Shown here piece after piece: positions 3,057 through 29,503 of a stretch of 64,000 nt of DNA. The position numbers and the translations under genes were made by a program. The notes beneath the pieces were generated by a model that searched no databases, had not been told where the DNA came from, and saw only the letters and a list, made by a program, of their open reading frames with translations. The DNA comes from Saccharospirillum sp. (GTDB lineage Bacteria > Pseudomonadota > Gammaproteobacteria > Pseudomonadales > Natronospirillaceae). The stretch covers positions 1,178,001-1,242,000 of the forward strand of contig JAGYIL010000001.1 of NCBI GenBank assembly GCA_018402545.1, read 5' to 3'. The first letter of the stretch is position 1. The number at the start of each line of letters is the position of its first letter.

Positions 3057-3254
3057 GCGGTGGCTGCCTGGGATGCTTCCGTGGGGGAGTCCGCAGCAGG
3101 GACTAAAACGCCAGGAGCGTTTTAGCATGAGCGCAGCGAGCCCGAAGGGTGGATCCCAGGGATGGGATTCATATCCTGCGGCCTAGGCTCCATGAAAGGA
3201 TTGAGTGGGCGGCAATCCGCCCGACCCCACAGAAGCATCCCAGGTGGCCGCCGC
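3057..3254 (+). repeat. palindromic intergenic element, long form (copy 1 of 7)
   Basis: Arms of about 30 bases pair across the element: GCGGTGGCTGCCTGGGATGC at the left and a near-complementary copy ending GGCCGCCGC at 3254. The loop is the long version: AGTCCGCAGCAGGGA, a CTAAAACGC/GCGTTTTAG hairpin, the conserved GAGCGCAGCGAGCCCGAAGG, a GGATCCC/GGGATTC hairpin, then GCGGCCTAGGCTCCATG. It lies between the start of the RNase J-like gene and the stop of the sigma-54 activator gene. The rest of 2920..3295 shows nothing else I can name. Confidence 0.9.
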
Positions 3255-3295
3255 GGACCAAAGCCACAGAGCCGACCACAACGCCGAAACCCGGG

Positions 3296-4255
3296 TTACA
3301 TAAGCTGCAGGGATTTCATTTTTCGCCAGAGGGTGGCGCGTGATATGCCCATGGCGTCGGCGACGGCCTGCTTGTGGCCTTTGTGTTGTTGCATTAGTGC
3401 GAAAATTCGGTCCCGTTCATTTTGCTCGATGCTGATCTCGGACTCATCCGGTGGGGCTTCGCCGCGCAGCTCGGGTGGCAGGTCCTGTAGCTGAATGGTT
3501 GGGCCTTCGCCGATGGCGTGGGCGTAGGTGATGACATTGATCAGCTCGCGAATGTTGCCGGGCCAGTCGTAGGCCAACAGCGCATCGTAGGCAGGCGCGG
3601 CGATGCTGTCGATATGACGTTCGTTTTCCTGGTTCAGGCTGTTGATGAACTGCCAACTGAGCATGGCGACGTCGCCAACGCGGCTTTTCAGTGGCGGCAG
3701 GTACAGCGGTACGACGCGCACCCGGTACATCAGATCTTCGCGGAAATCGCCGTCTGCGGCCAGTTTACGCAAGGATTTGTGCGTGGCGCTGACCAGGCGG
3801 ATGTCAGTATGCAGTACTTCGCTTGAGCCCAGCGGCGTAAAGCATCGGTCCTGCAGTACTCGCAGCAGACCGGCCTGAATATCCAGCGGCATTTCCGCAA
3901 TTTCATCCAAAAACAGGGTGCCGCCGTCAGTCAGTTCAAACAAGCCGGTGCGATCATGCGTGGCGCCGGTGAAGGCACCGCGTTTGTGACCGAAGAGTTC
4001 CGAGGCCATCAACTCGCGCGACAGGGCCGCGCAGTTGATGGCGCTGAACGGCTGAGCGGCACGGCGTGATTGGTCGTGGATATAACGCGCGACCAGTTCC
4101 TTGCCGGACCCGGTTTGACCGCGCACCAGAATCGACGCCTGGGTTCGGGCCACGCGCTCGGCCTGAGCCATGAACTCGAGCATGTTGGGGGCGACAGTCA
4201 GCAGGCCACCAAAGTTATGCGGGCGCTGGTCGTCGGGCCGGTAGAGGTCAGTCAT
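3296..4255 (-). CDS. PspF-like sigma-54-dependent transcriptional activator
   Basis: This is a bacterial enhancer-binding protein that opens sigma-54 RNA polymerase promoters using ATP. The AAA+ domain starts almost at the N-terminus: Walker A GQTGSGKE at residues 46-53, the sigma-54-contacting GAFTGA loop at 93-98 and Walker B GTLFLDE near 112-118. A Fis-type helix-turn-helix (ISRATLWRKMKSLQ) ends the 319-residue protein. There is no N-terminal receiver, GAF or PAS domain, as in PspF, so activity is probably set by a partner protein or by expression level. It overlaps the upstream SulP gene by 8 bases, so it is co-transcribed with SulP and the DUF442 gene. No pspA-like gene is nearby, so it is not called pspF. 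Its targets are unknown. Confidence 0.85.
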   Translation of the reverse strand: MTDLYRPDDQRPHNFGGLLTVAPNMLEFMAQAERVARTQASILVRGQTGSGKELVARYIHDQSRRAAQPFSAINCAALSRELMASELFGHKRGAFTGATHDRTGLFELTDGGTLFLDEIAEMPLDIQAGLLRVLQDRCFTPLGSSEVLHTDIRLVSATHKSLRKLAADGDFREDLMYRVRVVPLYLPPLKSRVGDVAMLSWQFINSLNQENERHIDSIAAPAYDALLAYDWPGNIRELINVITYAHAIGEGPTIQLQDLPPELRGEAPPDESEISIEQNERDRIFALMQQHKGHKQAVADAMGISRATLWRKMKSLQLM

Positions 4256-5858
4256 GGTCTGGCTCCGGTTCGCGGATGCGCTGCGCCATTACCCGGTCGC
4301 ACCAGGGCAAACGAATGCCCAGGGTGTTGGACAGCTGCACCAGTGCCGGGGTATGGCCACAAATCTGAATCTCGATGCCCTGCGTCTGGGCATGCGCTAC
4401 AAACTGCTGCAAAGCCTGCAGGGCCGCTACGCGGATGTGATGTGTATGGGTCAGGTCGATGGTCAGCAGGGTTGTTTTCGGAGCCAGCATGGCCGTGAGC
4501 CGTTCCGGGAGCTGACGTGCAGCGGCGAAATAGAGGCTGCCCGAGATCTGAATCAGCGTATGGGGGCTGTCGAGTTCGATGGTGTCACGCAGCCAGCCTT
4601 CTTCGTCTACCGCGTAGCGCCGCAGCAGGGGTACGCTGGCCTGAAACAGAAAGATGCCGAGCCCCAGCGCCGCGCCGAGCAGAATGGCCTCGTGGAAATT
4701 GAGGACCAGGGTGCTGATCAGGGTGACCAGAAACAGAGTTCGGGTCTGGGAGTTGGCTTTGAGAATGGTGCGAATCTGGTCGGGCTTCAGCATCGACAGG
4801 GCAGTGGCAACCAACAGTCCGGCGATAACCGCCTGTGGAATGGCGCGAATCAGATCGGCGCCAAACAGAATAATGGGCAGAATGGCCAGGGCGGCGATAA
4901 AGGGCGCCCAGCGGGTAACCGCACCACCAATGTCGAGCAATACAGACCGGGTCAGGGAAGTGCTGGCCGGGAAGGCCCCGGTCACGCTGCCGACCAGGTT
5001 GGCAATGCCCTGGCTGCCGAGCTCGCGCCGCAGCCAGCGCTGCTCGGCCCGGTTGCGCAGGGTCACAATCAATTCCAGCGAGCCGATAAAGGAGACAGCA
5101 AAACCCGGGATGATCAGTGCCTGTACCATGCTCCAGCTGGGCCAGTGAGTAGCCAGTTGCGGCCAGCCATCGGAAATGACGGTGGTTTGTTCCAGCGTTA
5201 TCCAGCGCTCGATAAAAGACCAGGGTGCCCAGATTACCAGGGCCGTGCTGACCACCAGAGTCATCAGCGGAATCGGCCAGCGTGGCAAGAAGCGCCGGCC
5301 GAGCACGACTGACGCCAGCGCAAAGACCGACAGGCCAACTGCTGCCCATTCAATATCAGGCAGCCTCAGACCTGAGAGCTGAACTAGCTCATCCACGACA
5401 TTGCGCACATCGGAGAAGGGAGTGCCGATGAATTCGTCGAGCTGCATCAGCGCAATGATAACGGCCGCACCGGTGGCGAAACCCACCATAACGGCTTCGG
5501 GAACGAAGTCGAAGACGCGCTCCGCCCGCAGCGCGACGATCAGCAGGCGTGAAAGGCCCGCCAGAACCGTCAGGGTGGCCATGGCGGTTAATAACAGCTC
5601 AGGCTGGTCGGCCCAGGGGGTCAGGCTGGCGAGAATGATCAGGCCGGTGGTGTTTGTCGGTCCGACCGTAACATGGGCACTGCGACCAAAGAGGGCGGCC
5701 ACCATGCCCGGCAGGGCGGCGGTGACCATCCCGTACATCGGGGGCAGCCCCGATAACATGGCGTAGGCAAGGCATTGCGGAATACCGACCAGTGCCACCA
5801 GTAAGCCGGCGTTGATGTCGCCGGCGCGGGGCAGTGAGAAGGCGATGGCTTTCGGCAA
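4248..5858 (-). CDS. SulP (SLC26) family anion transporter with STAS domain
   Basis: This is an inner-membrane transporter for sulfate, bicarbonate or a related anion. Residues ~15-400 form the multi-pass SulP membrane domain, opening with LVALVGIPQCLAYAMLSGLPP, the conserved first-helix region, and including GSVTGAFPASTSLTRSVL. A cytoplasmic STAS domain occupies roughly 430-520. Length, 536 residues, is typical. The start is a TTG at 5858, three bases after the stop of the DUF442 gene, so translation is probably coupled. The stop overlaps the downstream sigma-54 activator gene. Pairing with a DUF442 persulfide/rhodanese-like protein suggests a sulfur oxyanion as substrate; that is inference from context only. 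Confidence 0.85.
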   Translation of the reverse strand: MPKAIAFSLPRAGDINAGLLVALVGIPQCLAYAMLSGLPPMYGMVTAALPGMVAALFGRSAHVTVGPTNTTGLIILASLTPWADQPELLLTAMATLTVLAGLSRLLIVALRAERVFDFVPEAVMVGFATGAAVIIALMQLDEFIGTPFSDVRNVVDELVQLSGLRLPDIEWAAVGLSVFALASVVLGRRFLPRWPIPLMTLVVSTALVIWAPWSFIERWITLEQTTVISDGWPQLATHWPSWSMVQALIIPGFAVSFIGSLELIVTLRNRAEQRWLRRELGSQGIANLVGSVTGAFPASTSLTRSVLLDIGGAVTRWAPFIAALAILPIILFGADLIRAIPQAVIAGLLVATALSMLKPDQIRTILKANSQTRTLFLVTLISTLVLNFHEAILLGAALGLGIFLFQASVPLLRRYAVDEEGWLRDTIELDSPHTLIQISGSLYFAAARQLPERLTAMLAPKTTLLTIDLTHTHHIRVAALQALQQFVAHAQTQGIEIQICGHTPALVQLSNTLGIRLPWCDRVMAQRIREPEPDHD

Positions 5859-5861
5859 GAC

Positions 5862-6194
5862 TCAGTTGGACCCCTGAGTGGCGTTGTACAAAATGCTGCT
5901 GCGATTGCCAGTGCGACAATAGGCAAGAATGTTGCTGCCGTCGTCGATCAGGGCTTTCAGGGTACTCACCTGCTCGGGCGAGTAGTTGGGCCCGTTCATC
6001 GGCAGCTCGACGAATTTGATGCCGGCCGCATCGCAGGCACGACGGATGTCGGCCGCTGGAATCTGGTCGGCACTTTCGCCATCGGGCCGGTTGCAGACGA
6101 TGACACCGATACCCTGTTCTTTGGCTTCGGCAACGTCGTTAGTCGTAATTTGCGGGCTGACCCGGAAGGTGGGGGATAGCTGGGTTACGTTCAT
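5862..6194 (-). CDS. DUF442/TIGR01244-family rhodanese-like sulfur transferase
   Basis: This is a small (110-residue) cytoplasmic protein of the DUF442 family, which has a dual-specificity-phosphatase/rhodanese-like fold. The active-site loop CRTGNR lies at residues 93-98 with C93 as the predicted nucleophile. Homologues are often fused or linked to persulfide dioxygenases and sulfide:quinone oxidoreductases, so a role in handling persulfide sulfur is plausible. The ATG at 6194 is chosen because AGGAGAGG precedes it; an in-frame ATG 57 bases upstream has no such site. It is the first gene of the operon with SulP and the sigma-54 activator. The TIGR01244 assignment is from memory of the family. 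Confidence 0.8.
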   Translation of the reverse strand: MNVTQLSPTFRVSPQITTNDVAEAKEQGIGVIVCNRPDGESADQIPAADIRRACDAAGIKFVELPMNGPNYSPEQVSTLKALIDDGSNILAYCRTGNRSSILYNATQGSN

Positions 6195-6550
6195 TGAACC
6201 TCTCCTGCTTTGATGTCGAATTATGCTGGATGCTACCACCTGCTTAACCACGGTGCGATACCGTCGGCCGGATTGCAGCGTTCAGCGCTTACATTAGTAA
6301 AGTATAATATAATGATATGGATCACAGTTTCCAGAGATTGGTCGTCGTGCTGCATTAATTTTCCATGTCAGGCCTCCCGGCATGCTTGCAGTCTGCGCCA
6401 ATTCCTCTATGTTATCAGTCAGCATCCGGCCACTTTTACGTAGCCTCTGAACGGTTGCAAACAGGCCCTGTTCCAGCCTGGTAGAAATCGCTCAGGTGAC
6501 CGTCAACAACAATAACCCGTACCGGCCGGACCGACCCTTTGGAGAGCATT
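6195..6550. other. divergent intergenic region
   Basis: This 356-base gap separates the minus-strand DUF442-SulP operon from the plus-strand Yip1-like gene. A very AT-rich patch at 6294-6320 (including GTATAATATAATGATAT) is the only strong promoter-like composition. It could serve the minus-strand operon. I saw no clear -24/-12 sigma-54 promoter and no gene. Confidence 0.4.
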
Positions 6551-7162
6551 ATGATTCTGGATCACACCCTTGGTATTTTCACTCACCCCGGTAGTGAGTG
6601 GTCACTCATTCGTAAACAGCGACGCAGCAAGACGATGGAGTTTCTGACTCACGTCCCGATTCTGGCGCTGATTCCTGCGGTGTGTTTCTATTTTGGCGTG
6701 GCGGAAGTAGGCTGGCGTCTGGGTGACGGGCCGCTGACTGTGCTGACGGCGCAAAGTGCGCTGGTTCTGTGCGTGCTGAGCTATCTGGCGGCATTGGTCG
6801 GCGTCTGGGCATTCGGTGAGTTTATTACCTGGATGACAACAACCTATTCCGATGAGCCGGTTGATCCGCACCACGGCATGGCTCTGGCTGTTTATACCAC
6901 AGCGCCAATTTTCCTGGCTGGTATCGTCGGTGCCTGGCCAGTGCTCTGGCTAAACGCCGTGGTATTTGCCATCGCGGCCGCCTATGCGGTCTATCTGATC
7001 TACGAAGGCCTGCCCATCGTGATGAACATTCCGAAAGAGCGTGCCTTCATGTACGCCACTTCGGTCATCACCGTAGCCCTGGTGCTGCTGGTAACCCTGC
7101 GGGTAGGCACCGTCATCGTCTGGTCAGCCGGCTTCGGCCCCGAATACATGGTATTGGAATGA
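6551..7162 (+). CDS. Yip1-family inner-membrane protein
   Basis: This is a 203-residue multi-pass membrane protein of the Yip1 domain family (DUF1282-like). The N-terminus HPGSEWSLIRKQRRS is the typical cytosolic lead (P..W..I) before about five membrane helices. A conserved-looking YTTAPIFLAGIVGAWP segment lies in the centre. Function in bacteria is unknown. The ATG at 6551 is preferred because GGAG lies 9 bases upstream; an ATG at 6539 overlaps the ribosome site. It is monocistronic and ends at a palindromic repeat and a bidirectional terminator. Confidence 0.75.
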   Translation: MILDHTLGIFTHPGSEWSLIRKQRRSKTMEFLTHVPILALIPAVCFYFGVAEVGWRLGDGPLTVLTAQSALVLCVLSYLAALVGVWAFGEFITWMTTTYSDEPVDPHHGMALAVYTTAPIFLAGIVGAWPVLWLNAVVFAIAAAYAVYLIYEGLPIVMNIPKERAFMYATSVITVALVLLVTLRVGTVIVWSAGFGPEYMVLE

Positions 7163-7178
7163 TCAGTGGCAGGAGTTC

Positions 7179-7291
7179 GTGTCGGCTACCGGGTAGTCCT
7201 CTCCGGGGTCGGCGTGAACTCGTCCATGAGGCCTAGACCACAGCATCCCTGCTGTGGACTCCCCCGGAGAGGCCTACCCGGCAGCCGACAC
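7179..7291 (-). repeat. palindromic intergenic element, short form (copy 2 of 7)
   Basis: The arms are GTGTCGGCTACCGGGTAGTC at the left and a complementary arm ending CAGCCGACAC at 7291. Both halves contain a CCTCTCCGGGG/CCCCGGAGAGG block, which differs from the other copies but matches within this one. The loop, read on the minus strand, is AGTCCACAGCAGGGATGCTG then GGTCTAGGCCTCATGGAC and ACGCCGA, the short version without the extra module. It lies between two convergent genes. Confidence 0.9.
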
Positions 7292-7321
7292 TAATTGCCG
7301 CGTTGATTCCGACATTGCATT

Positions 7322-7350
7322 AAAAAGCCGACATTAAAGTCGGCTTTTTT
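7322..7350. terminator. bidirectional rho-independent terminator
   Basis: AAAAAGCCGAC and GTCGGCTTTTTT form a stem with a short AT-rich loop, with A and T tracts at each side. It lies between the converging Yip1-like gene and the lipoprotein gene and can end both transcripts. Confidence 0.85.
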
Positions 7351-7363
7351 GTGGTTGTAGAGG

Positions 7364-8278
7364 TTAGAGCAAACTCGACCAGGAAATGCTGTCCCGATAG
7401 CCATTGCTGTCGGTACGAGTCACGCCATAGTCCGAAAACTCCAGGTCCACCCATCCCCGATATGCCGTCATCCGTACCTTGCCCGCGTGTGGGCGGGTGT
7501 CGTTCTGGTACCAGTGCACGCCGCGTGTGGTAGTCAGACTGGCCGAGTTCGTGCGCCAGCCATCGTCTAGCCAGACGCTGGCGCTGGCTTCAATGCGAAA
7601 GTCGGTTGAATCCAGCTCGACGATGTCGGTGTTGATATTGGTGTAGTTCAGGTCGCTGCGTTCAGCGCGCATGCGCAGCCGGCCGGTCATGCTGCCTTCG
7701 AGGGATTCGATGCGGTCGTCATAGTCGTCGTACCAGCCCATTACATCAAAATCGAGCCGGCTGTTCAGGGTGACGTAGCCCTGCCAGTTGCGGGTATCGC
7801 AGTCTACAGCTTCGGCGGTTACGTCCATGGTGATGAACGTCATGCTGTCAGAGTAGGTTTCGGTCTCACCATAGGCATCGATACTGGTGTAGCCGCCAAA
7901 GTCGCAGGCTCCGGAATCAAACAGGTAGGTTGACGTGGTTTCAACCGGAATATGACTGCGGCTGGCCATGCGGGCTGAGGGGGTTAGAAACGCCTCGGGG
8001 TCCGCGATCATCTCGATGCTGGTGGCGCTCAGTGAGTAGGGTACCAGGGCGCTGCGCACCAGAAACTCGGTGTCGTAGCGCGCCAGTGTTGGAGTGACTT
8101 CCGTGTCGTAACCGGCCTCATGCTCATTTACATCGGTGACGCTTACGTGGCAACCGGTCAGCAGCAGGCCTGTCATTATGGAAAAGGTGGCCATGGTGGC
8201 CAGACGGCGCAGCCGAGCGGGTGAATGCTGGTTTGGCTCGATCGGTACGAACCGTTGATGCAAGCTGTTCTGAGTCAT
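7364..8278 (-). CDS. predicted lipoprotein of unknown function
   Basis: I do not recognise the family. The 304-residue product has a long, basic N-terminal lead, a hydrophobic stretch at residues ~28-41 and a lipobox-like LLTGC with C43 as the likely lipidated cysteine, so it is probably attached to the outer membrane facing the periplasm. The rest is rich in polar, aromatic and beta-prone segments (DSTDFRIEASASVWLDDGW) and could be a beta-sandwich. The ATG at 8278 is preceded by AAGGAGCC. It is a single gene, ending at the shared terminator. The leader is longer than usual for a lipoprotein, so an internal methionine could be the true start. Confidence 0.6.
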   Translation of the reverse strand: MTQNSLHQRFVPIEPNQHSPARLRRLATMATFSIMTGLLLTGCHVSVTDVNEHEAGYDTEVTPTLARYDTEFLVRSALVPYSLSATSIEMIADPEAFLTPSARMASRSHIPVETTSTYLFDSGACDFGGYTSIDAYGETETYSDSMTFITMDVTAEAVDCDTRNWQGYVTLNSRLDFDVMGWYDDYDDRIESLEGSMTGRLRMRAERSDLNYTNINTDIVELDSTDFRIEASASVWLDDGWRTNSASLTTTRGVHWYQNDTRPHAGKVRMTAYRGWVDLEFSDYGVTRTDSNGYRDSISWSSLL

Positions 8279-8386
8279 GAGTAAGGCTCCTTGTTCGATG
8301 GAGCCAGTATCGCAAGGCAGGCTGAACCCGATCTGAACTGAGCAGGCTGAAAGATGTGGTTGTTAATATTGGGTTAAGGAAATGAA

Positions 8387-9457
8387 TTAGTGTGCAATCG
8401 CAGTGATGGGCTGGAGTCGTTCTGCCAGTTTGCCGGTGCTGACCAGGGTGTGGAGTTCGTCGGCCAGGGCCTGGTTCATGTCGACCACGGTGTTCCAGTA
8501 GCGCAGGCGGGTTTCGTCATCGAGGGTTTCGAAGTCTTTGCGGTCGGGAATCTTGCCGTAAGGCAGTTTGTCGATGAACGCCTGGCTTGGGCAGACGACC
8601 AGGGTGTGGCTGTAGTGACTGGCGGTGACTTTGCGCCAGGGCAGGGGTTTGTCGAACCAGCCGGGTTTCAGCACTGGGGAGAAGTGCGGGTAGAGCACCA
8701 GGCCGTTGTCTGGTTTGATTGGCAGGTCGAAATGGTAGTCGACCATGCCGCCGTCCCGGTAGACCCCCGGAGGGGCGCCGGCGGGGTTGGTAACACCGTG
8801 AATTACTACTGGAATAGCGCCACTGGCTTGCAGCGCCTGGCGCAGGTTGTCGGGTGTCAGTGGCACCTGATAGGTGGTGAACTGGTCCCAGTCGGTCAGG
8901 GGTAGCTGGCCACCGGGGCTGCGAAACACGACTCTGTCGAAGTAGCGGGGCAGGGTGGCCCGGGAGATCATGTTGCTGGCGGCGACGCCGGTGAATACCC
9001 AGGCCTGTTTGCGCGTGGAGTGCGCTGCGGTGACGCCCCGGCAACGGGCGGTGACAAGATGCAGCAAACGGTTTGGGTGCAGGTCGTCGAAGGGGTTATC
9101 GCCCATGGTTTCGTCGATGAACTCGTTGACCTTGCCGGTAATTTCGTCGGCATCGGCGTTGTCTGAATAGCGCTGGTTCAGGTAGCCGTGTTCTAGCCGG
9201 TCGAGCGCTGCTACCGGGTTTTTGTTGGCATAGGCCGTCATGCGCCAGGCGCCAATGGAACTGCCGATCAGGTTCAGGGGGTGATCGATGGCGGGCAGCC
9301 ATTCACTGGCCAGGTAACGATCCAGATGACTCAGTACAAACCATTTGGGTCCGCCCGATGCGCCCATAATGACGCGGATCGACTGGGGTGACAGCCCTTC
9401 GTTTTGAATGGTCCGGTAGGCGTGCTCGCCAGCGAAGAAATTGAGCGCTTGGGTCAA
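8387..9457 (-). CDS. patatin-like phospholipase family protein
   Basis: This is a predicted lipid acyl hydrolase of 356 residues. The oxyanion-hole segment GASGGPKWF is near residue 33, the nucleophile elbow GSSIG (G-x-S-x-G) is near 66-70 and the catalytic aspartate sits in DGGMVDYHFD near 235. All three parts of the Ser-Asp dyad architecture are present. No signal peptide is visible, so it is likely cytoplasmic or membrane-associated. The start codon is TTG at 9457, preceded by CAGGGACAG. It lies between a lipoprotein and a suhB-like gene with no obvious operon link. Substrate is unknown. Confidence 0.8.
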   Translation of the reverse strand: MTQALNFFAGEHAYRTIQNEGLSPQSIRVIMGASGGPKWFVLSHLDRYLASEWLPAIDHPLNLIGSSIGAWRMTAYANKNPVAALDRLEHGYLNQRYSDNADADEITGKVNEFIDETMGDNPFDDLHPNRLLHLVTARCRGVTAAHSTRKQAWVFTGVAASNMISRATLPRYFDRVVFRSPGGQLPLTDWDQFTTYQVPLTPDNLRQALQASGAIPVVIHGVTNPAGAPPGVYRDGGMVDYHFDLPIKPDNGLVLYPHFSPVLKPGWFDKPLPWRKVTASHYSHTLVVCPSQAFIDKLPYGKIPDRKDFETLDDETRLRYWNTVVDMNQALADELHTLVSTGKLAERLQPITAIAH

Positions 9458-9577
9458 ACGTCTGTCCCTGTATGTTCAGAAAACGCGCACTATACCCCGT
9501 GATAAGCTCTGCCCCAAGGCGTAGCTGATAAAACGGCGGATCTGAAGTGTGGAACCGGAAAGGAAGTCACAAAACGT

Positions 9578-9605
9578 TGCCTCCAACAGCGGACTGTTGG
9601 AGGCA
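9578..9605 (-). terminator. terminator of the suhB-like gene
   Basis: TGCCTCCAACAG and CTGTTGGAGGCA form a perfect 12-bp stem with a 4-base loop, 17 bases beyond the suhB-like stop codon. On the minus strand it is followed by a short T-rich stretch. Confidence 0.75.
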
Positions 9606-9621
9606 GCAGGACAAATGGCGC

Positions 9622-10371: not shown

Positions 10372-10530
10372 GGTCGGTTCACACTCACATCAAAAGGGTT
10401 AAACCGTACCGGTCAGGCATGGACGCCAGCCTTTCCATCGAGTGTGTGACAGCACAGCCAGACAGAACGGACGGACGAGCCTGGTCAGGTACGTCGGTTT
10501 TATCCGCAAAAACGGGTTTGTTAAACAGCG

Positions 10531-10565: not shown

Positions 10566-10632
10566 ACACACCTTTGACGCACTCTTTAAGCCATGGTGTG
10601 CAGTTTTTGAACGATAAGAGGTGAAATAAAGC

Positions 10633-11409: not shown

Positions 11410-11410
11410 T

Positions 11411-14242: not shown

Positions 14243-14449
14243 GGGATTATTAACTCAGGTTTCGGAGTTCGAGTCCGCAGAAGTGGCGGTGGTCCGCGCC
14301 GGATACCTGGTATGCCTCTGTGGGGTCGGCGTAGATCCGTCCGTGGAGCCTAGGCCGCAGCATCCCTGCTGCGGACTACCCCACAGAGGCATACCCAGCA
14401 TCCGCCGCTAATCGCCTTAGCAAACTCCGAAACTTGAGTCAATAATCCC
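14243..14449 (-). repeat. palindromic intergenic element, short form with 27-bp terminal inverted repeats (copy 3 of 7)
   Basis: The core (14286-14408) has arms sharing GGTATGCCTCTGTGGGG and its exact complement. The short loop is read on the minus strand: AGTCCGCAGCAGGGATGCTG, then CGGCCTAGGCTCCACGG. Outside the core, 14243-14269 and 14423-14449 form terminal inverted repeats identical at 25 of 27 positions and containing TTTCGGAGTT. No target duplication is evident. This copy shows the fullest boundaries of the family. Confidence 0.9.
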
Positions 14450-14511
14450 CGCGAAACTGTTGCTTAGAGACGGGAGTAGAGAGACTTATTTGGAAGTGGC
14501 ACTAGGTTAAG

Positions 14512-14695
14512 TGCCGGGTGCCGGGTGTGACTATCCGGGGGAGTTCGCAACATGGACTAAAACGCCTGGAGCGTTTTAGCATGAGCGCAGCGAGCCCGAA
14601 GGGTGAATCCCATGGATGGGATTCATATCATGCGATCTAGGCCCCATGCAAGGGTTCACGCCGACCCCGGATAGTCATACCCGGTGCCCAGCACG
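14512..14695 (+). repeat. palindromic intergenic element, long form (copy 4 of 7)
   Basis: Arms GTGCCGGGTGCCGGGTGTGA and the complementary arm ending GTGCCCAGCAC share a GACTATCCGGGG block. The loop holds the CTAAAACGC/GCGTTTTAG hairpin, GAGCGCAGCGAGCCCGAAGG, a perfect GAATCCCATGGATGGGATTC palindrome, then the conserved CTAGGCCCCATG and CACGCCGA end. It lies 62 bases from copy 3. Together they occupy most of the 602-base gap between the LpxH-like gene and the secreted nuclease gene. Confidence 0.9.
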
Positions 14696-14756
14696 AATTC
14701 ATGGCACCTAATTAGAAGTGCCGGGGCTCCATGGAAGGATGCCCCGGCCAGAGAGA

Positions 14757-21342: not shown

Positions 21343-21381
21343 GGCAATTCGGAGGTCAGTTTAACTGGTTGCCGTGAGTTC

Positions 21382-21494
21382 GTGCCAGACACCGGGTGTG
21401 CCTATCCGGGGTCGGCGTGAACCCATCCATGGGGCCTAGACCGCAGCATCCCTGCTGCGGACTTCCCCGGATAGGCACACCCGGTATCCGGCAC
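21382..21494 (-). repeat. palindromic intergenic element, short form (copy 5 of 7)
   Basis: Arms GTGCCAGACACCGGGTGTGC and the complement ending TATCCGGCAC share a CCTATCCGGGG block. The loop on the minus strand is AGTCCGCAGCAGGGATGCTG followed by CGGTCTAGGCCCCATGGATG and ACGCCGA. It lies 40 bases after the aldehyde dehydrogenase stop. Confidence 0.9.
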
Positions 21495-21612
21495 TTTATT
21501 GGCTGGCAACATTACATTTAACCCCTGTTCTAAAAATTCTTTGCCTTGTTTGTGTTTCTTCACAGTCGGGGCTTTTTTGTGCCTGCTAGAGTGTGTCAAA
21601 GGTTACTAGCAC

Positions 21613-21796
21613 AAGTTTCGGAGTTCGCTCAGTAGACTAGCGCCGGTTGCCGGGGTATGCCTCTGTGGGATAGTCCGCAACATGGATGTTGCGGCCTAGG
21701 CTCCAGGACGGATTCACGCCGACCCCACAGAGGCATACCCCGGTATCCGGTGCGGCCCAATGCCAATGAGCAGACCTTAACTCCGGAATTTGAGTC
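21613..21796 (+). repeat. palindromic intergenic element, short form with outer inverted repeats (copy 6 of 7)
   Basis: The core 21641-21754 has arms sharing GGGGTATGCCTCTGTGGG and its complement. The loop is in plus orientation: TAGTCCGCAACATGGATGTT, then GCGGCCTAGGCTCCAGG, ending CACGCCGA. Outer repeats AAGTTTCGGAGTT (21613-21625) and AACTCCGGAATTTGAGTC (21779-21796) match those of copy 3. Confidence 0.88.
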
Positions 21797-22013: not shown

Positions 22014-23498
22014 ATGTTGTTATCTTCCACCCGAAAAGACTGGTTCGGGAATGTTCGTGGCGATGTGCTCGCCGGTTTGGTTGTTGCCCTGGCATTGATC
22101 CCCGAAGCGATTGCCTTTTCCATTATTGCGGGTGTTGACCCCAAAGTCGGGTTGTACGCGTCGTTCTGCATCGCTGTTGTCATTGCTTTCACCGGCGGTC
22201 GGCCGGGCATGATTTCTGCCGCGACGGGCGCCATGGCGCTGTTGATGGTGACGCTGGTGAAAGAGCATGGGCTGGAATATCTGCTGGCCGCTACGCTGTT
22301 GACCGGCGTTCTGCAGATTGTGATCGGCTATTTGCGCATGGGCGAACTGATGCGGTTTGTCTCACGCTCCGTGGTCACGGGCTTTGTGAATGCCCTGGCA
22401 ATTCTGATTTTTATGGCCCAGTTGCCCGAACTGACCAATGTCACCTGGCACGTCTATGCGATGACAGTAGCGGGCCTGGGCATCATTTACCTGTTTCCGC
22501 TGATCAATAAAACCATTCCCTCGCCGCTGGTGACCATTGTGGTACTGACCGGCGTGAGCATGGTGATGGGGCTTGAGATCAGAACCGTGGGCGATCTGGG
22601 CGACTTGCCGGATACCCTGCCGATGTTCCTGTGGCCCGATGTACCGCTGACCCTCGAAACCCTGCAAATCATCTTCCCCTATGCCTTTGCGCTGGCCATG
22701 GTTGGGATTCTCGAATCGCTGATGACAGCGACCATTGTTGACGATCTGACCGACACTCCCAGCGACAAGAACCGTGAGTGCAAGGCCCAGGGCGTTGCCA
22801 ACATCGGTTCTGGCTTGATGGGTGGCATGGCCGGTTGTGCCATGATCGGTCAGTCGGTCATCAACGTTAAATCTGGGGGTCGCGGACGTTTGTCGACGCT
22901 GATTGCTGGTGTCGTGCTATTGATCATGGTGGTCTTTCTGAACCCCTGGGTTTCGCAGATACCGATGGCTGCTCTGGTGGCGGTGATGATCATGGTCTCT
23001 ATCGGTACCTTTAACTGGGGCTCGTTCAAAGACCTTAAGAAATACCCGCTGTCGACCAATATTGTGATGGTCGTTACCGTTGTTGTTGTGGTCTGGACGC
23101 ACAACCTGGCCTACGGTGTCTTTGCGGGTGTGCTGTTGGCGGCCCTGTTCTTCGCCAACAAGGTGGGGCACTTCATGTATGTTACCAGCCAGTTGGATGA
23201 AGCAACCGATACCCGTCGCTACAGCGTCATCGGCCAGGTTTTCTTTACGTCTTCCGAGAAGTTTTTGGCGTCATTCGACTTCAAAGAAGCCGTCGATCAT
23301 GTTGTTATTGACCTGACCCGTGCTCATTTCTGGGACATCACCGCCGTGGGCGCACTCGACAAGGCCGTGATCAAGTTCCGCCGTGAAGGGGCACAGGTCG
23401 AGATCATTGGCCTGAACGAAGCCAGTGAAACCATCGTTGACCGCTTTGGTGTGCACGATAAACCCGAAGAGATCGACAAAGTGTTAGGAGGTCACTGA
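22014..23498 (+). CDS. SulP family inorganic anion transporter with STAS domain
   Basis: This is a second SulP/SLC26 transporter, 494 residues, only distantly like the one at 4248. The first helix region reads [20 protein letters not shown], about ten membrane segments follow, then a shortened STAS domain (about 400-490, with [20 protein letters not shown]). The family carries sulfate, bicarbonate or other anions across the inner membrane. It overlaps the universal stress protein gene by one base (TGATG), so the two are translationally coupled. The pairing suggests transport tied to stress or energy status; the substrate is not clear. Confidence 0.87.
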
Positions 23499-24358
23499 TG
23501 TTTAACAAAGACAATAAAATACTGGCCTGCATCGACGGTTCCAAATACAGCCAGTCGGTCTGTGACTATGCCGCCTGGATCAGCCAGCGCACGGGTGCCC
23601 CCTTGCAGTTGTTGCATAACCTGGAGCACCCTGCGGGTGCTTCTACGGCTGATCTGTCTGGTGCCATTGGGCTGGGCAGCCGAGATACCCTCTTGCAGGA
23701 ACTGACCGAGGTAGAAGAACAGCGTAACCGGCTGATGATGGAGCAAGGCAAGCTGATGCTGGCGGCCGCTAAAGAGCGGATCGGGCAGGGCGGTACCGAA
23801 GCGTCGACCAAACAGCGCCACGGTAGCCTGACTGAATCCCTGATCGAGATGGAAGAAGACATTCGCGTTCTGGTGCTGGGCATTCGTGGCGAAGAACACG
23901 AGCAGGACACCACGCACCTGGGCGCCCACCTGGAAGCCACCATACGCGCCCTGCACCGGCCGATTCTGGTGGTAAACACCGAGTTTAGGGTGCCCGAGAA
24001 AGTCATGTTGGCCTATGACGGCAGTGATGCCTCCAGCAAGGCACTCGACATGCTGGCGCAAAGCCCGCTGTTTAAAGGCATTCCGGTGCATCTGGTCACG
24101 GTTGGGGAAGACCCGGCTGACTCAAATACGTTACAACACAAGGCTACCGAGGTATTGCAGGCAGCGGGTCACAACGTTACTGCGGTCACCCTGGACGGTA
24201 AGCCGAGTGAAGCGCTGGTGAGCTACCAGGCCGAGCACGATATCGATCTGACCCTGATGGGGGCGTTCAGCCATACCCGTCTGCGCGAGCTGGTGTTGGG
24301 CAGCCTGACCGCCAAGGTGTTGTTGAAGTCGAACAAGCCGTTGTTATTGTTAAGGTAA
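23498..24358 (+). CDS. universal stress protein, tandem UspA domains
   Basis: This 286-residue cytoplasmic protein has two UspA-like domains. The first starts KILACIDGSKYSQSVCDYAAW at residues 5-25, and the second starts at about residue 168 with KVMLAYDGSDASSKALDML. The second ends with an ATP-binding-type signature (GAFSHTRLRELVLGSLTAKVLLKS, about 252-275), whereas the first domain's equivalent segment is divergent. The first domain also carries a long helical insertion rich in Glu/Gln. It is coupled by overlap to the SulP transporter, so it may modulate it or be co-induced. A palindromic repeat follows. Confidence 0.88.
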   Translation: MFNKDNKILACIDGSKYSQSVCDYAAWISQRTGAPLQLLHNLEHPAGASTADLSGAIGLGSRDTLLQELTEVEEQRNRLMMEQGKLMLAAAKERIGQGGTEASTKQRHGSLTESLIEMEEDIRVLVLGIRGEEHEQDTTHLGAHLEATIRALHRPILVVNTEFRVPEKVMLAYDGSDASSKALDMLAQSPLFKGIPVHLVTVGEDPADSNTLQHKATEVLQAAGHNVTAVTLDGKPSEALVSYQAEHDIDLTLMGAFSHTRLRELVLGSLTAKVLLKSNKPLLLLR

Positions 24359-24383
24359 AATCGATTCGCCGGTTAAACTAAAT

Positions 24384-24481
24384 CCCCAAGGGGGTTCGAC
24401 AGGCTCACCCCGCACGGAATTCGGGGCTCAGACTGCAATGACTACCCCCGTTCGCTCTGAGCCTGTCGAAGGGCCTTGGGG
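24384..24481. repeat. intergenic hairpin repeat related to the 1285..1550 array
   Basis: CCCCAAGGGGGTTCGACAGG and its near-complement ending TCGAAGGGCCTTGGGG enclose a loop with CACCCCGCACGGAATTCGGG and CCGTTCGCTCTGAGCC. The TTCGACA/TGTCGAA plus GCTCA core is shared with the 127-bp tandem repeat. It lies between convergent genes and may also end transcription. Confidence 0.8.
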
Positions 24482-24521
24482 AATAGAGTGAGCCGGAGTA
24501 CCTGTCGGCTCACTGATCAGA

Positions 24522-24893
24522 CTAAGTGTCGTTTTTGCCCACACTGTCCTCTTCCACCCCCTTCCGCCAGACCTTCAGCACATAGATATACAGCATGACC
24601 ACCAGTGCAGCGGCCAGCCCCGAGGCCAGTATTGACGGTTGCTCGACGGCATCCGGGTTCATGGTCAGCCCCAGGCCGCCAATGGTGAAGACCTGCTGTG
24701 GCATCAGCCAGCGCTTGCGCGGACGCCCGGTCAGAGTGGCGCGCAGGGTGAAATGCAGGGCCATGGGGGCAACGGCCAGCAGAACCCCCCACCAGGGCGC
24801 GGGTTCCGCCCCGTTCAGCAGGGCGAGAACAGCCACCATGGCCGCCACACCCAGCAAACCGGTGTAGGCGCGCATGAAAAAGGCAATGTTCAT
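24522..24893 (-). CDS. small multi-pass membrane protein of unknown function
   Basis: I do not recognise this 123-residue protein. It is mostly hydrophobic, with about four predicted membrane helices (residues ~9-27, ~33-50, ~65-80, ~88-108) and a charged C-terminal tail (KVWRKGVEEDSVGKNDT). The start overlaps the stop of the LOG-family gene (ATGA), so it is its operon partner and is translationally coupled. Nothing in the sequence points to a specific role. Confidence 0.65.
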   Translation of the reverse strand: MNIAFFMRAYTGLLGVAAMVAVLALLNGAEPAPWWGVLLAVAPMALHFTLRATLTGRPRKRWLMPQQVFTIGGLGLTMNPDAVEQPSILASGLAAALVVMLYIYVLKVWRKGVEEDSVGKNDT

Positions 24894-25438
24894 TGCGGAC
24901 GGACCCGGCTTTCCAGCGTATCCAGCAGGCTGTCGACCGTCGATTCGATGATCAGTGTGGTCGTAAGATCAGCCCAAGCGAAGCCCTGGTCCGTCATTCG
25001 GGTGATCATGGTGAGCAGCGGGTCGTAATAACCCTTGTGGTTCAGAATGGCCACTGGCTTGTGGTGGTAGCCCAGCATCTGCCAGGTCCAGACTTCGAAC
25101 AATTCTTCCATGGTACCTGGCCCGCCGGGCAGGGCGACAAAGGCATCGGCCGGGTCGGCCATGCCGGCCTTGCGTTCATGCATAGTGTCGACGACCTGCA
25201 ATTCGGTGATACCCGGGTGAGCGACTTCCCGGTCGACCAGCGCTTTGGGCATCACGCCCAGCACCTGCCGGCCACCGGCCAGTACGGCATCGGCCACTGC
25301 CCCCATCAGGCCAATGTTGGCTCCGCCGTAAATCAGGTCATGCTGCCGCCGGGCCATCTGTTGGCCAAGGTTCGTGGCCAGATCGATGTATTCCGGGTTA
25401 TGACCACTTTTTGAGCCGCAATAAACCGCTATTTGCAT
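24890..25438 (-). CDS. LOG/TIGR00730-family nucleotide 5'-monophosphate phosphoribohydrolase
   Basis: This Rossmann-fold protein, 182 residues, belongs to the Lonely Guy family, members of which cleave AMP or cytokinin nucleotides to base and ribose 5-phosphate. The diagnostic motif PGGPGTMEE lies near residues 104-112, and the N-terminal VYCGSKSG and GGANIGLMGAVADA segments match. It is often annotated as a lysine decarboxylase-like protein, which is a misnomer. It is the first gene of a two-gene unit with the small membrane protein. AGGGG precedes the ATG. In bacteria the true role is probably nucleotide salvage. Confidence 0.88.
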   Translation of the reverse strand: MQIAVYCGSKSGHNPEYIDLATNLGQQMARRQHDLIYGGANIGLMGAVADAVLAGGRQVLGVMPKALVDREVAHPGITELQVVDTMHERKAGMADPADAFVALPGGPGTMEELFEVWTWQMLGYHHKPVAILNHKGYYDPLLTMITRMTDQGFAWADLTTTLIIESTVDSLLDTLESRVRPQ

Positions 25439-25490
25439 GACGTTCCCCTGATGAATGGCGCTGCAAGAATGCCACCTTCAGCGCCCAATC

Positions 25491-26003
25491 TCAAAGTGCC
25501 TGGCAGACTTCAGTCATGATGGTGCTGTCTTGCTCAAGGGTGCGAATGTCATTGACCTGGGCCTCTCCGGCTTCCGTCATGGGTACCAGCTCGGTCGTGG
25601 TGCAATTGAGCAGATAGGTTTGATAGGTCACCTGATCAATGTGTTGTTTTTCAAAGCGATACATTACAAAGCGTACAATGATGTCGCCTTCCTGTTCACG
25701 CTGAACCATGTTGTTCACATCGACCACGGTAAAGGCATTGATCATGGGGTAAACCATGGTCCAGGGGCGCCAGACCTGGTTGGGAGATTCGGTCGAGACC
25801 ACGACGGAACCCTCGGGTAGCTGAGCTTGCTTCAGCTCAAACCAGCCATACTCAAAGTTGACCTGGTAAGCCAGCATGCCCGCACCGGCAAAAACCGGAA
25901 TGATCCATCGGGGTAATTTCTTTCGGCTAAGAAAACGGAGAAAGAGGCCGATGCCAGCGGCACCCAGGCCCGATACTGCAATTGCGATTAAATGCCATAA
26001 CAT
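25491..26003 (-). CDS. conserved-type membrane-anchored protein of unknown function
   Basis: I cannot assign this 170-residue protein to a family. Two hydrophobic stretches near the N-terminus (residues ~4-24 and ~34-48) suggest it sits in the inner membrane with a polar C-terminal domain rich in beta-prone segments (residues ~55-165), including NQVWRPWTMVYPMINAFTVV. It has two cysteines in the C-terminal half. It is preceded by the terminator of the symporter operon and followed by the LOG gene, so it is probably its own unit. Confidence 0.6.
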   Translation of the reverse strand: MLWHLIAIAVSGLGAAGIGLFLRFLSRKKLPRWIIPVFAGAGMLAYQVNFEYGWFELKQAQLPEGSVVVSTESPNQVWRPWTMVYPMINAFTVVDVNNMVQREQEGDIIVRFVMYRFEKQHIDQVTYQTYLLNCTTTELVPMTEAGEAQVNDIRTLEQDSTIMTEVCQAL

Positions 26004-26025
26004 GAAAGGTTAACCCTGAAATAAA

Positions 26026-26049
26026 ACGGGCCTCCAAGTGGAAGCCCGT
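26026..26049 (-). terminator. terminator of the sodium symporter operon
   Basis: ACGGGC and GCCCGT with inner TCC/GGA pairs form a stem about 75 bases after the symporter stop. On the minus strand it is followed by TTTTATTTC. Confidence 0.75.
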
Positions 26050-26125
26050 GAAAGAAACTGTGATCCTGTCAGTGTACCCGTACCGACTCCCGGGAGCGAG
26101 AGTCGGCGGTCGTGCACCGGATCAA

Positions 26126-27898
26126 TCAGTGACTGAGGTGACTCGCTGCGCCAGCGCCTTTCGGATAGCGAACGCTTTCAACCAGTTCCTGAATTTCCTT
26201 CGGTGGTGCTTCAGTCGCGTTGGATACGAGGAAGGCGACGCCGAAGTTGATCATAGCACCGACAGCCCCGAAGGACAGTGGTGAAATACCAAAGATCCAA
26301 TTGTCGGCCGTGTTGGCCAGCATGTTGGTATCCGGAATGAAGAACCAGCCGAGGTAGGTGAAGATGTACAGCAGCGTGGACAACAGACCCGCCAGCATGC
26401 CTGCGATTGCACCCTTGTCGTTCATGCGGGTCGAGAAAATACCCATCATGATCGCCGGGAAGATCGAGGCAGCCGCAATACCAAACGCCAGTGCCACCGT
26501 CTGTGCCGCGAACCCGGGTGGGTTAAGGCCCAAATAGGTTGCCAGCAGAATGGCACCACCCATGGAGATGCGGGCAGCCAGCATTTCACCCTTTTCACTG
26601 ATGTCTGGTTTGAGGGTTTTCTTGATCAAGTCGTGACTGATGGCCGAGGAGATGGCCAGCAACAAACCGGCTGCTGTCGACAAAGCCGCCGCGATACCAC
26701 CCGCTGCAATTAGGCCGATGACCCAGCCTGGCAGATTGGCAATCTCAGGGTTTGCCAGTACCAGAATGTCGTTGTTAACCGTCAGTTCATTGCCTGCCCA
26801 TCCACGCGCTTCGGCCGTGGCTTGAAACTCGGGAACGGCATTGTAGAACTGAATGCGGCCATCGTTATTCTGGTCGTTAAAACTGACCAGCCCGGTTTCT
26901 TCCCAGCTGCGAATCCACTGTGGCCGGTCTTCATAGGCCAGTGCAGGCGCTTCAGCTCCGTCCGGGAATACCGTGGTCAGCAGGTTCAAGCGAGCCATAG
27001 AAGCAACGGCAGGCGCTGTCAGGTACAACAGGGCGATAAACACCAGTGCCCAGCCAGCGGACCAGCGAGCGTCAGCCACCTTGGGCACGGTGAAGAAGCG
27101 GATGATGACGTGTGGCAGACCCGCCGTACCGATCATCAGTGACAGGGTAAACAGCACCATGTTCAGCTTGTTGGACACGTCTGCAGTGTAGTCCCGGAAG
27201 CCCAGTTCACGTACCACTTCATCCAGCTTGGCCAACAATGGCATGCCGGAGTCAGTATGTTCACTGAACAAACCGAACATTGGAATCGGGTTGCCAGTCA
27301 GTTGCAGTGAAATAAAGATCGCCGGAATGGTGTAGGCGATGATCAGTACCACATACTGGGCGACCTGAGTATAGGTAATGCCTTTCATGCCACCGAATAC
27401 CGCGTAGAAGAACACGATAACCGCCGCAATCCAGATACCCGCTGTGCTGCTCACTTCCAGGAAGCGTGAGAAGGCAACACCGGCACCGGTCATCTGACCG
27501 ATAACGTAGGTTACCGAGGCAACGATCAGACAGACAACCGCCACCAGACGTGCCTTGCTGCTGTAGAAACGGTCGCCAATGAAGTCAGGTACCGTGAACT
27601 TGCCGAACTTGCGCAGGTAGGGGGCCAGCAACATGGCCAGCAGCACGTAACCACCCGTCCAACCCATCAGGAAGGTTGAGTTGGCGTAACCACCGGCGGC
27701 GATCAGGCCCGCCATGGAGATGAACGAAGCAGCTGACATCCAGTCGGCCGCGGTTGCCATGCCGTTGGTGATCGGATTGATACCGCCACCGGCGACGTAG
27801 AATTCTTTGGTAGAGGATGCCCGGGCCCATATCGCGATACCGATATAAAGCGCAAAGGAGCCGCCAACAAAGATCAGGTTAATTGCAAATTGACTCAT
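26126..27898 (-). CDS. sodium:solute symporter, large subunit (VC_2705/ActP-like)
   Basis: This 590-residue inner-membrane transporter belongs to the sodium:solute symporter superfamily. About thirteen membrane helices are visible. The early segment FYVAGGGINPITNGMATAAD and GQMTGAGVAFSRFLEV match the acetate permease-like subgroup that is paired with a DUF4212 small subunit. Likely substrates are acetate, propionate or related short acids, taken up with sodium. A central hydrophilic loop (about 300-370) is longer than in ActP. The start follows the small-subunit gene by five bases and has GGAG upstream. The terminator lies at 26026. Confidence 0.9.
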   Translation of the reverse strand: MSQFAINLIFVGGSFALYIGIAIWARASSTKEFYVAGGGINPITNGMATAADWMSAASFISMAGLIAAGGYANSTFLMGWTGGYVLLAMLLAPYLRKFGKFTVPDFIGDRFYSSKARLVAVVCLIVASVTYVIGQMTGAGVAFSRFLEVSSTAGIWIAAVIVFFYAVFGGMKGITYTQVAQYVVLIIAYTIPAIFISLQLTGNPIPMFGLFSEHTDSGMPLLAKLDEVVRELGFRDYTADVSNKLNMVLFTLSLMIGTAGLPHVIIRFFTVPKVADARWSAGWALVFIALLYLTAPAVASMARLNLLTTVFPDGAEAPALAYEDRPQWIRSWEETGLVSFNDQNNDGRIQFYNAVPEFQATAEARGWAGNELTVNNDILVLANPEIANLPGWVIGLIAAGGIAAALSTAAGLLLAISSAISHDLIKKTLKPDISEKGEMLAARISMGGAILLATYLGLNPPGFAAQTVALAFGIAAASIFPAIMMGIFSTRMNDKGAIAGMLAGLLSTLLYIFTYLGWFFIPDTNMLANTADNWIFGISPLSFGAVGAMINFGVAFLVSNATEAPPKEIQELVESVRYPKGAGAASHLSH

Positions 27899-27903
27899 CT
27901 GCC

Positions 27904-28164
27904 TTACTCCCCGAGGTCGAATTTCTTATCGAGTTTGTTCATTCTCCAGGCGTAGAAGAAGATCAGACCGATAAAGCTGAGAATTGAACCCTGTTGAGCA
28001 AACCAGAAGCCGAGGTCGGTGCCACCGAATTGAATTCCGGCCAGTAACGGACGAAACAGAATGGCGCAACCGTAGGACACAAAAGCCCAGACGATCAGGC
28101 AACCCAGAATCAATCTCAGGTTGGCCGACCAATACTGCGCCGCTGGGGATCTATCATCACTCAT
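27904..28164 (-). CDS. DUF4212 sodium/substrate symporter small subunit
   Basis: This 86-residue protein has two membrane helices (about 17-36 and 50-72) and matches the DUF4212 family that always accompanies VC_2705-type symporters. WSANLRLILGCLIVWAFVSY and the ending FFYAWRMNKLDKKF are typical. It is probably needed for assembly or function of the large subunit. GGAG precedes the ATG. A palindromic candidate operator lies about 50 bases upstream. Confidence 0.9.
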   Translation of the reverse strand: MSDDRSPAAQYWSANLRLILGCLIVWAFVSYGCAILFRPLLAGIQFGGTDLGFWFAQQGSILSFIGLIFFYAWRMNKLDKKFDLGE

Positions 28165-28210
28165 GATGTGTTCTCCGTCTTATTGTTGTTGAACGAGCTA
28201 GAGAGTGCGC

Positions 28211-28228
28211 GGTGTTCTTAAGAATACC
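28211..28228. promoter_or_regulatory. palindromic candidate operator upstream of the symporter operon
   Basis: GGTGTTCTTAAGAATACC is an 18-bp palindrome with one non-complementary pair. It lies 47 bases upstream of the small-subunit start, in the region expected to hold the promoter. The regulator cannot be named. Confidence 0.5.
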
Positions 28229-28398
28229 CAACGCTATGGTGCATAATTGCAGTGTCCATTGAAAAGCCAGACTTTAGTCGCATGAGAGGGGACAGCTACG
28301 AGCTGCGAGCTATTAGCTGAGAGTTTAGTGATAGGAAGAGCCGTGTCTGGTTGGGCTTTTTCGGTACAATGGCGTCACATTCCCGGCCAATGTTGACT

Positions 28399-29235
28399 AT
28401 GCCTGTTACCGCTTTTGACCGCCTCGCCTGTCCATTGGATGGCCAACCACTTACGCGCCAGAGCCATGCCTGGCAGTGCCCCCAGGGGCATAGCTTCGAT
28501 ATTGCCCGCCAGGGTTATGTGCATTTGTTGCCGGTTCAGAAAAAACGATCGAAAGACCCGGGCGACAGCAAAGCCATGGTGGCGGCCCGGCAACGGTTTC
28601 TGAACGCGGGGCACTACCAGTGTATTGCTGACGCCCTTAATAAGGCTGTACTGCAGGCGTTGCCCGCTGATGCTGCCTGTCTGGATGCCGGCTGTGGCGA
28701 GGGCTATTACCTGCGCCAGTTTGGCCAGGCGATGCCGGCAGGCATCGATATGCAGGTGCTGGGGCTGGATGTCTCCAAATGGGCCGTTCTGTCGGCCGCC
28801 AAACAGGACCCGGCTCCCGCCTGGCTGGTGGGTACCAACGCCCACATACCGGTACCCGACAGCAGCCTCGACCGGGTGCTCTGTGTGTTCGGTTTCCCGG
28901 TATTCGACGAGTTTGCCCGGGTATTGAAGCCAGGAGGACGGCTGATCATGGTCGATCCGGGGCCGGACCATTTGCGTGAACTGCGAGACATTATTTACCC
29001 CAGTGTCACCGAGCGACCTGAAGGTGAACGTGCTGTGCCCGAATCGTTTCAGGAGGTGAGCAGGGAGGCCGTGCGCGAAACGATCGAGCTTGAGGATGCA
29101 TCTAGTATCGCGGATTTGCTGGCGATGACGCCGCATCTATACCGGGCACCCGCTGAAGGTCTGGCCAGAGCCGCCGAACTGACCCGGCTGCAACTGACAC
29201 TTGATGTTCGGATTCAGGTGCTGGAACTCGCATAA
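28399..29235 (+). CDS. RlmA-like 23S rRNA (guanine-N1) methyltransferase
   Basis: This S-adenosylmethionine-dependent methyltransferase has 278 residues. An N-terminal zinc ribbon is visible: CPLDGQPL followed by CPQGHSFD (residues 9-31), as in RlmA, which methylates G745 (RlmA-I) of 23S rRNA. A basic YVHLLPVQKKRSKDPGD segment and the SAM-binding CLDAGCGEGYYLRQF follow. Later GGRLIMVDPGPDHLREL completes the Rossmann core. I use the ATG at 28399; another in frame at 28390 is equally possible, and neither has a strong ribosome site. A TACAAT box at 28365 is a possible -10. It is a single gene and ends at a palindromic element. Confidence 0.82.
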   Translation: MPVTAFDRLACPLDGQPLTRQSHAWQCPQGHSFDIARQGYVHLLPVQKKRSKDPGDSKAMVAARQRFLNAGHYQCIADALNKAVLQALPADAACLDAGCGEGYYLRQFGQAMPAGIDMQVLGLDVSKWAVLSAAKQDPAPAWLVGTNAHIPVPDSSLDRVLCVFGFPVFDEFARVLKPGGRLIMVDPGPDHLRELRDIIYPSVTERPEGERAVPESFQEVSREAVRETIELEDASSIADLLAMTPHLYRAPAEGLARAAELTRLQLTLDVRIQVLELA

Positions 29236-29236
29236 C

Positions 29237-29503
29237 TCAAGTATCGTAGTTCGCCGGAGAAACGAGCGGCGGGTGCCGGGTGAGCCCTTGAGGGGAAGTC
29301 CGCAACAGGGACTACAACTCCAGGAGCGTTTTAGCATGAGCGCAGCGAGCCCGGAGGGTGAATCCCATGGAGGGGATTCATATCATGCGGTCTAGGCCCC
29401 ATGGATGGGTTGAGTGGGCGGCATTCCGCCCGACCCCTCAAGGGCTTACCCGGTTCCCGGTGCGGGCTATTGCCGCCCAGCCAACCCGAACTCCGGAATT
29501 TGA
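29237..29503 (+). repeat. palindromic intergenic element, long form (copy 7 of 7)
   Basis: Core 29266-29464 has arms sharing AGCCCTTGAGGGG and its complement. The loop keeps AGTCCGCAACAGGGACTA, GGAGCGTTTTAGCATGAGCG, GAATCCCATGGAGGGGATTC and TCTAGGCCCCATGGATGGGT. Outer repeats containing TCAAG...GTTCG and CGAACTCCGGAATTTGA flank it. The TAAAACGC arm of the inner hairpin is changed to TACAACTC here, so that small stem is lost in this copy. Confidence 0.88.

Follow-up and report, generated by a model that had tools for sequence, protein, structure and literature searches.

A dispersed foldback repeat family of Saccharospirillum and other Gammaproteobacteria with a putative Csr/Rsm-type RNA core

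Small RNAs that sequester CsrA, of the CsrB, RsmY and RsmZ type, are the products of a few dedicated sRNA genes and contain several hairpins whose loops include GGA. The binding consensus of RsmE/CsrA is given as A/UCANGGANGU/A (PMC6849547, PMC5864733). One RNA family in Rfam, TwoAYGGAY (RF01731; clan CL00106; gathering threshold 43 bits; type Cis-reg), consists of a poorly conserved outer stem around two hairpins with AYGGAY-type loops. It has been proposed to bind CsrA and is presented as an RNA of Clostridia in one account (PMC4333381); another reports it from the human gut, gammaproteobacteria and Clostridiales and, in a table, rates it as probably an RNA and probably not cis-regulatory (PMC2864571).

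High-copy intergenic palindromes that occur as inverted dimers are known as REPs, including the GTAG/CGTC-tagged (PMC3733652) and the RAYT-associated types (PMC2817692). REPs are described as 20-40 bp long with a tag at one end, forming head-to-head dimers between unidirectional and convergent genes, with a mention of REP dimers inside longer palindromes (PMC3733652). Template switching is a further process described for palindromes, by which inverted-repeat arms are homogenised and the spacer between them is inverted (PMC8604942). Among the literature listings and passages that we consulted, no paper was found that names the repeat family described here.

The window—the whole 64-kb stretch of DNA analysed—comes from a Saccharospirillum genome (G000; 4.25 Mb, 11 contigs), in which the original prediction had noted seven intergenic palindromes with co-varying arms. 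Covariance model R2, for which 121 matches at loci in other genomes were used, matched all seven at or near the predicted places at E ≤ 1 (E 4e-23 to 2e-6; Table 1) and, across the whole window, no eighth place, which bears out the predicted absence of copies from 30-64 kb; ORF-based gene calls likewise place 7/7 copies between genes. An earlier model, R1, had recovered 6/7 and missed copy 7 (29237). An anchor match at window position 39508 lay within a gene, had no covariance-model support and was dropped.

Table 1. The seven copies of the foldback repeat in the window, with their R2 scores and tip sequences.
Copy	Extent	Core	Strand	Form	R2 bits	E-value	Details
1	3015..3291	3067-3244	+	long form	34.9	1.9e-6	tip B altered to CATGAAAG
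2	7169..7301	7189-7281	-	short form	93.1	3.3e-21	tips A and B CANGGANG
3	14243..14449	14306-14398	-	short form	87.6	8.3e-20	tips A and B CANGGANG; outer arms 14243-14269 / 14423-14449
4	14511..14694	14521-14684	+	long form	61.6	3.3e-13	tip B altered to CATGCAAG
5	21382..21494	21392-21484	-	short form	100.5	4.3e-23	minus-strand tips: A CAGGGATG at 21454-21447, B CATGGATG at 21431-21424
6	21610..21794	21651-21742	+	short form + outer arms	84.4	5.3e-19	tip B with one-base deletion; outer ends judged by eye
7	29237..29503	29276-29453	+	long form + outer arms	36.7	6.9e-7	

The single architecture that had been proposed recurs in all copies, but three of them (3057, 14512 and 29237; copies 1, 4 and 7) belong to a long form in which hairpin A carries an insert of ~71 nt, and two of these three have an extra GGGCGG..CCGCCC hairpin. 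Co-variation of the arms also stood; their exact complementarity did not, given a C.A mismatch in the copy at 3057 and a G.A in that at 7179, and the coordinates proposed mix inner with outer arms, the inner stem being ~20-30 bp. Several window copies have a further outer stem, such as ACTCAAGTTTCGGAGTTCG with its complement. Copies 3 and 4 (14243/14512) and copies 5 and 6 (21382/21613) form divergent pairs. Just 3' of copy 4, at approximately 14718-14745, lies another hairpin, GGGGCTCCATGGAAGGATGCCCC, again with the CATGGAAG motif, and a second family of inverted repeats, apparently unrelated, whose arms are of the TTCGACAAGCTCAGGG type, occurs at 1384-1545 and 24383-24482.

On the conserved strand, the element runs from the outer stem through one free base, hairpin A, an A linker, hairpin B and two free bases back to the outer stem. 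Hairpin A comprises 2 bp, a T.Y mismatch and 7 bp below the tip CANGGAUG; hairpin B comprises 3 + 3 bp below the tip CANGGANG, and its 3' side bears a UUYAC bulge of 5 nt that is kept across matches from many genera. RNA folding of 21392-21484 (z -8.7) gives this structure, with each tip gaining an internal A-U pair, and on the CANGGANG strand the four short window copies fold with z -6.5 to -8.7 against 200 dinucleotide shuffles. Both strands of the window copies fold stably, the CANGGANG strand being the more stable of the two in 5/7 copies.

The tip of hairpin B is an intact CANGGANG in 4/7 window copies (changed in 3057, 14512 and 21613), and both tips are intact in 3/4 short ones. When the search put no constraint on the tips, CANGGANG was found at tip A in 91/97 and at tip B in 93/97 short forms of the host genome, and at each tip in 53/55 other loci, some of which may have been picked by a tip-holding pattern. 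The added hairpin of 32 distinct long forms carries CANGGANG in 31/31 readable cases, with tip B intact in 21/32. Tip conservation was taken from this free-tip search and long-form reading, since members of the 121-match set from L213 onwards were picked by a tip-holding pattern. Both N positions vary, and the flanking A's are kept though N3:A6 or A2:N7 is often unable to pair; the closing C-G pair is present at both hairpins in 49/49 rows of an alignment of copies from the genus.

The family is not local to this stretch, as it had first appeared, but genome-wide in its host and present in many gammaproteobacterial genera. The covariance-model search of the genome and its relatives that had been suggested as a check returned, in the host, 150 matches among 150 scored candidates, all spanning ≤95 nt and thus short forms (at least 150), and a long-form query gave at least 40 further strong places, all spanning the insert. 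Because a match of ≤95 nt has no room for the insert, the two lists are disjoint and the host holds at least 190 copies, roughly 200 scattered through the genome. The short-form query returned 75 to 133 first-look candidates in three other genomes of the genus, and 7 and 9 in two more. Across the class, R1 matched 62/369 sampled genomes and 55/272 genera at E ≤ 1e-4, in a scan whose filters lose weak matches. A core-pattern scan of named genomes found at least 113 stretches, the titles listed including Stenotrophomonas, Xanthomonas, Marinobacter, Alteromonas, Idiomarina, Microbulbifer, Ectothiorhodospira and Vibrio; among 96 loci rescored with R1, a set that leaves out some core-pattern loci of near-duplicate species, Saccharospirillum impatiens (L241) came top with 105.9 bits. 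For most copies in other genera, the outer arms appear unrelated by sequence but are nonetheless paired. Phages and plasmids, searched with one query in one collection each, gave no match; a viral contig collection held a single core-pattern match (L326, 7807-7848).

The original prediction knew of no named element that the family resembled. Its core, however, has the TwoAYGGAY plan of an outer stem and two AYGGAY hairpins, AYGGAY being a subset of CANGGANG, and RF01731 scores on relatives of the window copies. A scan of 18 loci gave 38.6 bits for a genus copy in L033 and 42.9 bits for a second element in L050; the latter (1297-1418, minus strand) is a different element on the same plan, nearer to TwoAYGGAY and divergent to an R1-type copy, so that mixed pairs exist. 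Genome searches at E ≤ 1, in which the best 142 candidates were scored in four genomes, found at least 28, 29, 2, 58, 3 and 7 places in the six genus genomes G000, G001, G002, G003, G004 and G005, respectively, and none in 14 control genomes; at least seven places, in 3/6 genus genomes, exceeded the gathering threshold. Among 20 loci of other genera, one (L205) exceeded it, at 44.0 bits, overlapping an R1 match. For the window itself no Rfam family could be named: there was no match at gathering, only chance-like matches appeared at E ≤ 10, and no TwoAYGGAY match was seen in 1-32000 at E ≤ 10. Elements of other loci gave sub-threshold matches to miRNA families and Ysr224, which we dismissed as generic long hairpins. 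Since the window copies fall below the RF01731 threshold, we call the family a TwoAYGGAY variant and not a member. TwoAYGGAY is the closest known family and the present one is its repeat-like cousin, differing from it in being highly repeated, variably present between sister genomes, provided with long-form inserts and arranged in divergent pairs.

The CANGGANG tips match the CsrA/RsmE site in their letters, which makes them predicted docking sites: the short forms present paired ANGGAN loops closed by C-G, as CsrA/Rsm-binding RNAs do, and csrA occurs once per genome in 6/6 genus genomes. Like CsrB, RsmY and RsmZ, the elements combine hairpins with GGA in the loop, the long forms adding at least one more; unlike them, they are repeats scattered through the genome, with no promoter that could be recognised.

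Our preferred reading, held with moderate confidence, is that the family is a dispersed mobile foldback (MITE-like) repeat with a Csr/Rsm-type RNA core, its transcription and CsrA binding being putative. One particular single strand of the core folds into a three-way junction of a variable outer stem and hairpins A and B joined by a one-base linker, each short-form hairpin ending in a C[ANGGAN]G hexaloop. The conserved strand would act as RNA and bind CsrA/RsmA via its paired loops, so that any copy could serve as a decoy or docking site for Csr/Rsm. Two processes would share in keeping the arms complementary: template switching of DNA, by which the element would also be flipped, and selection for the fold. 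As DNA, the elements behave like mobile foldback repeats; as a single strand, they behave like a polar structure of CsrA type. The detailed match of the tips to an RNA-protein site, and the gain in the long form of one more hairpin like theirs, lead us to favour RNA.

The presence of the elements differs in a sister genome (G001), which is collinear with window positions 1559-55636 in the stretches compared, with 80-86% identity in the main blocks and 67% in one other. The whole foldback of copy 1, ~277 bp, is absent at the syntenic site, leaving a clean empty site at which there is no clear target duplication, as far as one site with ends uncertain by a few bases can tell. No counterpart was found there for copies 3, 4 and 7, which with copy 1 make 4/7 window copies. 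Copy 2 has a long-form counterpart at the same site and in the same orientation, being short here and long there, and the divergent pair of copies 5 and 6 is present in both genomes. Of 24 elements mapped from the sister to the host genome, including three that lie in the window, 13 have the same orientation, eight the opposite and three were scored absent, one of the last falsely because window copy 6, with its one-base deletion, escaped the anchor; one of the eight flipped sites (L364/L163) has poor arms and is doubtful, and an orientation flip could instead be an independent re-insertion. The elements are insertion-polymorphic, non-coding and bounded by terminal inverted repeats, as MITEs are, and no parent element was identified for them.

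The main rival to an RNA core takes the family for a REP/MITE-like DNA element that a Y1 (IS200/RAYT-type) transposase moves as folded single-stranded DNA. On this view, hairpin conservation and polarity reflect recognition by the transposase and not an RNA function. The copy number of at least 190 and the empty site without clear target duplication would fit it. So would the near-constant divergence of close neighbours, reminiscent of REP dimers: pairs less than 700 bp apart are divergent in 13/13 cases among genus loci and 12/16 in the wide set, as they are in 12/12 cases in the place list of the host and 8/9 in that of the sister, lists that overlap with the loci and for the sister hold 135/149 places, single-place contigs being left out. 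Genes for Y1 transposases number 1, 1, 3 and 1 in the four copy-rich genus genomes and zero in the two copy-poor ones, which, across six related genomes, is weak evidence. Against this, no convincing element adjoins the Y1 gene at the four of six places examined (L378-L381), the one match there scoring 15.1 bits (E 0.039). By eye, the genus alignment has no constant GTAG tag, AG at the junction being preceded by a variable base, and no constant CGTC; nor are constant ends seen in other genera, since outer arms there are largely unrelated between copies. The elements also depart from REPs in a core of ~90 nt with a three-way fold, variable arms and ANGGAN tips, and these tips agree in detail with an RNA-protein site. 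We consider this DNA-only explanation unlikely, if the most serious of the alternatives.

Gene context bears on both this rival and the next. Among 136 elements of the host genome, 34 lie between co-directional genes on the element's own strand (++) and 38 between co-directional genes on the opposite strand (--), 49 between convergent (+-) and 10 between divergent (-+) ones, four at edges and one inside a gene. The excess of convergent over divergent gaps, set against 48 convergent and 44 divergent gaps of ≥150 nt in the same loci, agrees with the placement of REPs and equally with cis-acting transcript-end hairpins, either bidirectional terminators or stabilisers of mRNA 3' ends, for which the stable folding of both strands also speaks. 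We judge this improbable: T-runs of ≥5 are in no excess 3' of the element (13/133 against 22/133 mirror A-runs), and ANGGAN tips and single-strand polarity are left unexplained. Relative to co-directional genes, element strand is unbiased in the host (34 sense, 38 antisense; p 0.72). The wide set of 121 (++ 14, -- 26, +- 22, -+ 13, 10 at edges, and 36 within ORFs called by length, which we judged largely spurious) likewise shows no sense bias, with 14 against 26 of 121. A function carried in mRNA predicts such a bias, and its lack argues against a simple role of that kind. Sigma-70-like promoters on the 5' side are no commoner than by chance (12/131 host copies, 12/131 shuffled). This lack of orientation preference and of a visible promoter is the main difficulty for the RNA core that we favour.

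The covariation that the original prediction proposed to measure is very strong. In 49 genus copies, drawn from copies pre-filtered for ≥14/20 arm pairs, 98.3% of cells are paired and 30/35 pairs have changed on both sides, with a covariation score of 0.579 against 0.156 when shuffled and ≤0.112 when slid. In the 121 matches from many genera, an alignment fitted to the model, 95.5% of cells are paired, 34/35 pairs have changed on both sides and the score is 0.913 against 0.197. Without any pairing filter, 163/168 copies anchored on hairpin B and the 3' arm signature have well-paired arms. Compensatory change had been taken to mean either selection on a hairpin or a copying mechanism that preserves it; the family is real and both seem to apply to the arms. 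Covariation by itself is ambiguous, because template switching between arms also produces it, and such switching would also account for the inversion of 8/21 shared sites in the sister species.

Mismatch polarity and the tips go beyond this. Over arm pairs 1-20 of 163 elements, scored without credit for G-T, there are 89 G-T and 9 A-C mismatches, with a G-T in 68 elements and an A-C in eight; at sites shared by the two species the counts are 25 and 0, and in the outer stem of the wide fitted set polarity is weaker (80 and 17). A strand-blind process would give equal numbers, so one strand matters, and the G-T excess together with the CANGGANG tips requires selection on one strand, although G-T would be tolerated in a folded DNA single strand as well. 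At shared sites, arms carry several compensated differences; we did not use the tally of double changes as an event count, its large values reflecting shifted register or replaced copies. Two loci (L122 and L126, genus g24) hold a divergent pair apparently common to two species, the arms of which have paired multi-base differences such as template switching would make. That repeated template switching alone made the arms covary, around a core that is simply young and under no selection for its fold, is very improbable: it would explain the flips and the compensated arm differences, including those of L122/L126, but as the sole cause it is largely refuted by polarity, to which it is blind, and it should make the tips palindromic, which is at odds with N3 and N7 varying while the A's stay, and leaves unexplained the persistence of the UUYAC bulge across many genera.

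These loci are a natural case in which to separate covariation made by template switching from selection on RNA structure, and a caveat for covariation-based RNA discovery. TwoAYGGAY is an orphan RNA family, and if the present core is bound by CsrA it would offer an abundant system for testing TwoAYGGAY function. More speculatively, and as a tentative possibility only, the family may represent a gammaproteobacterial class of mobile element with a CsrA/Rsm docking hairpin as its core, which at ~200 copies per genome would act as a distributed, tunable CsrA sponge, or would exploit CsrA for its own spread; orientation would then be free because template switching keeps flipping the element. CsrA binding to the core, if it occurs, would mean that a repeat family titrates a global regulator, and would link the copy number of that family to gene regulation.
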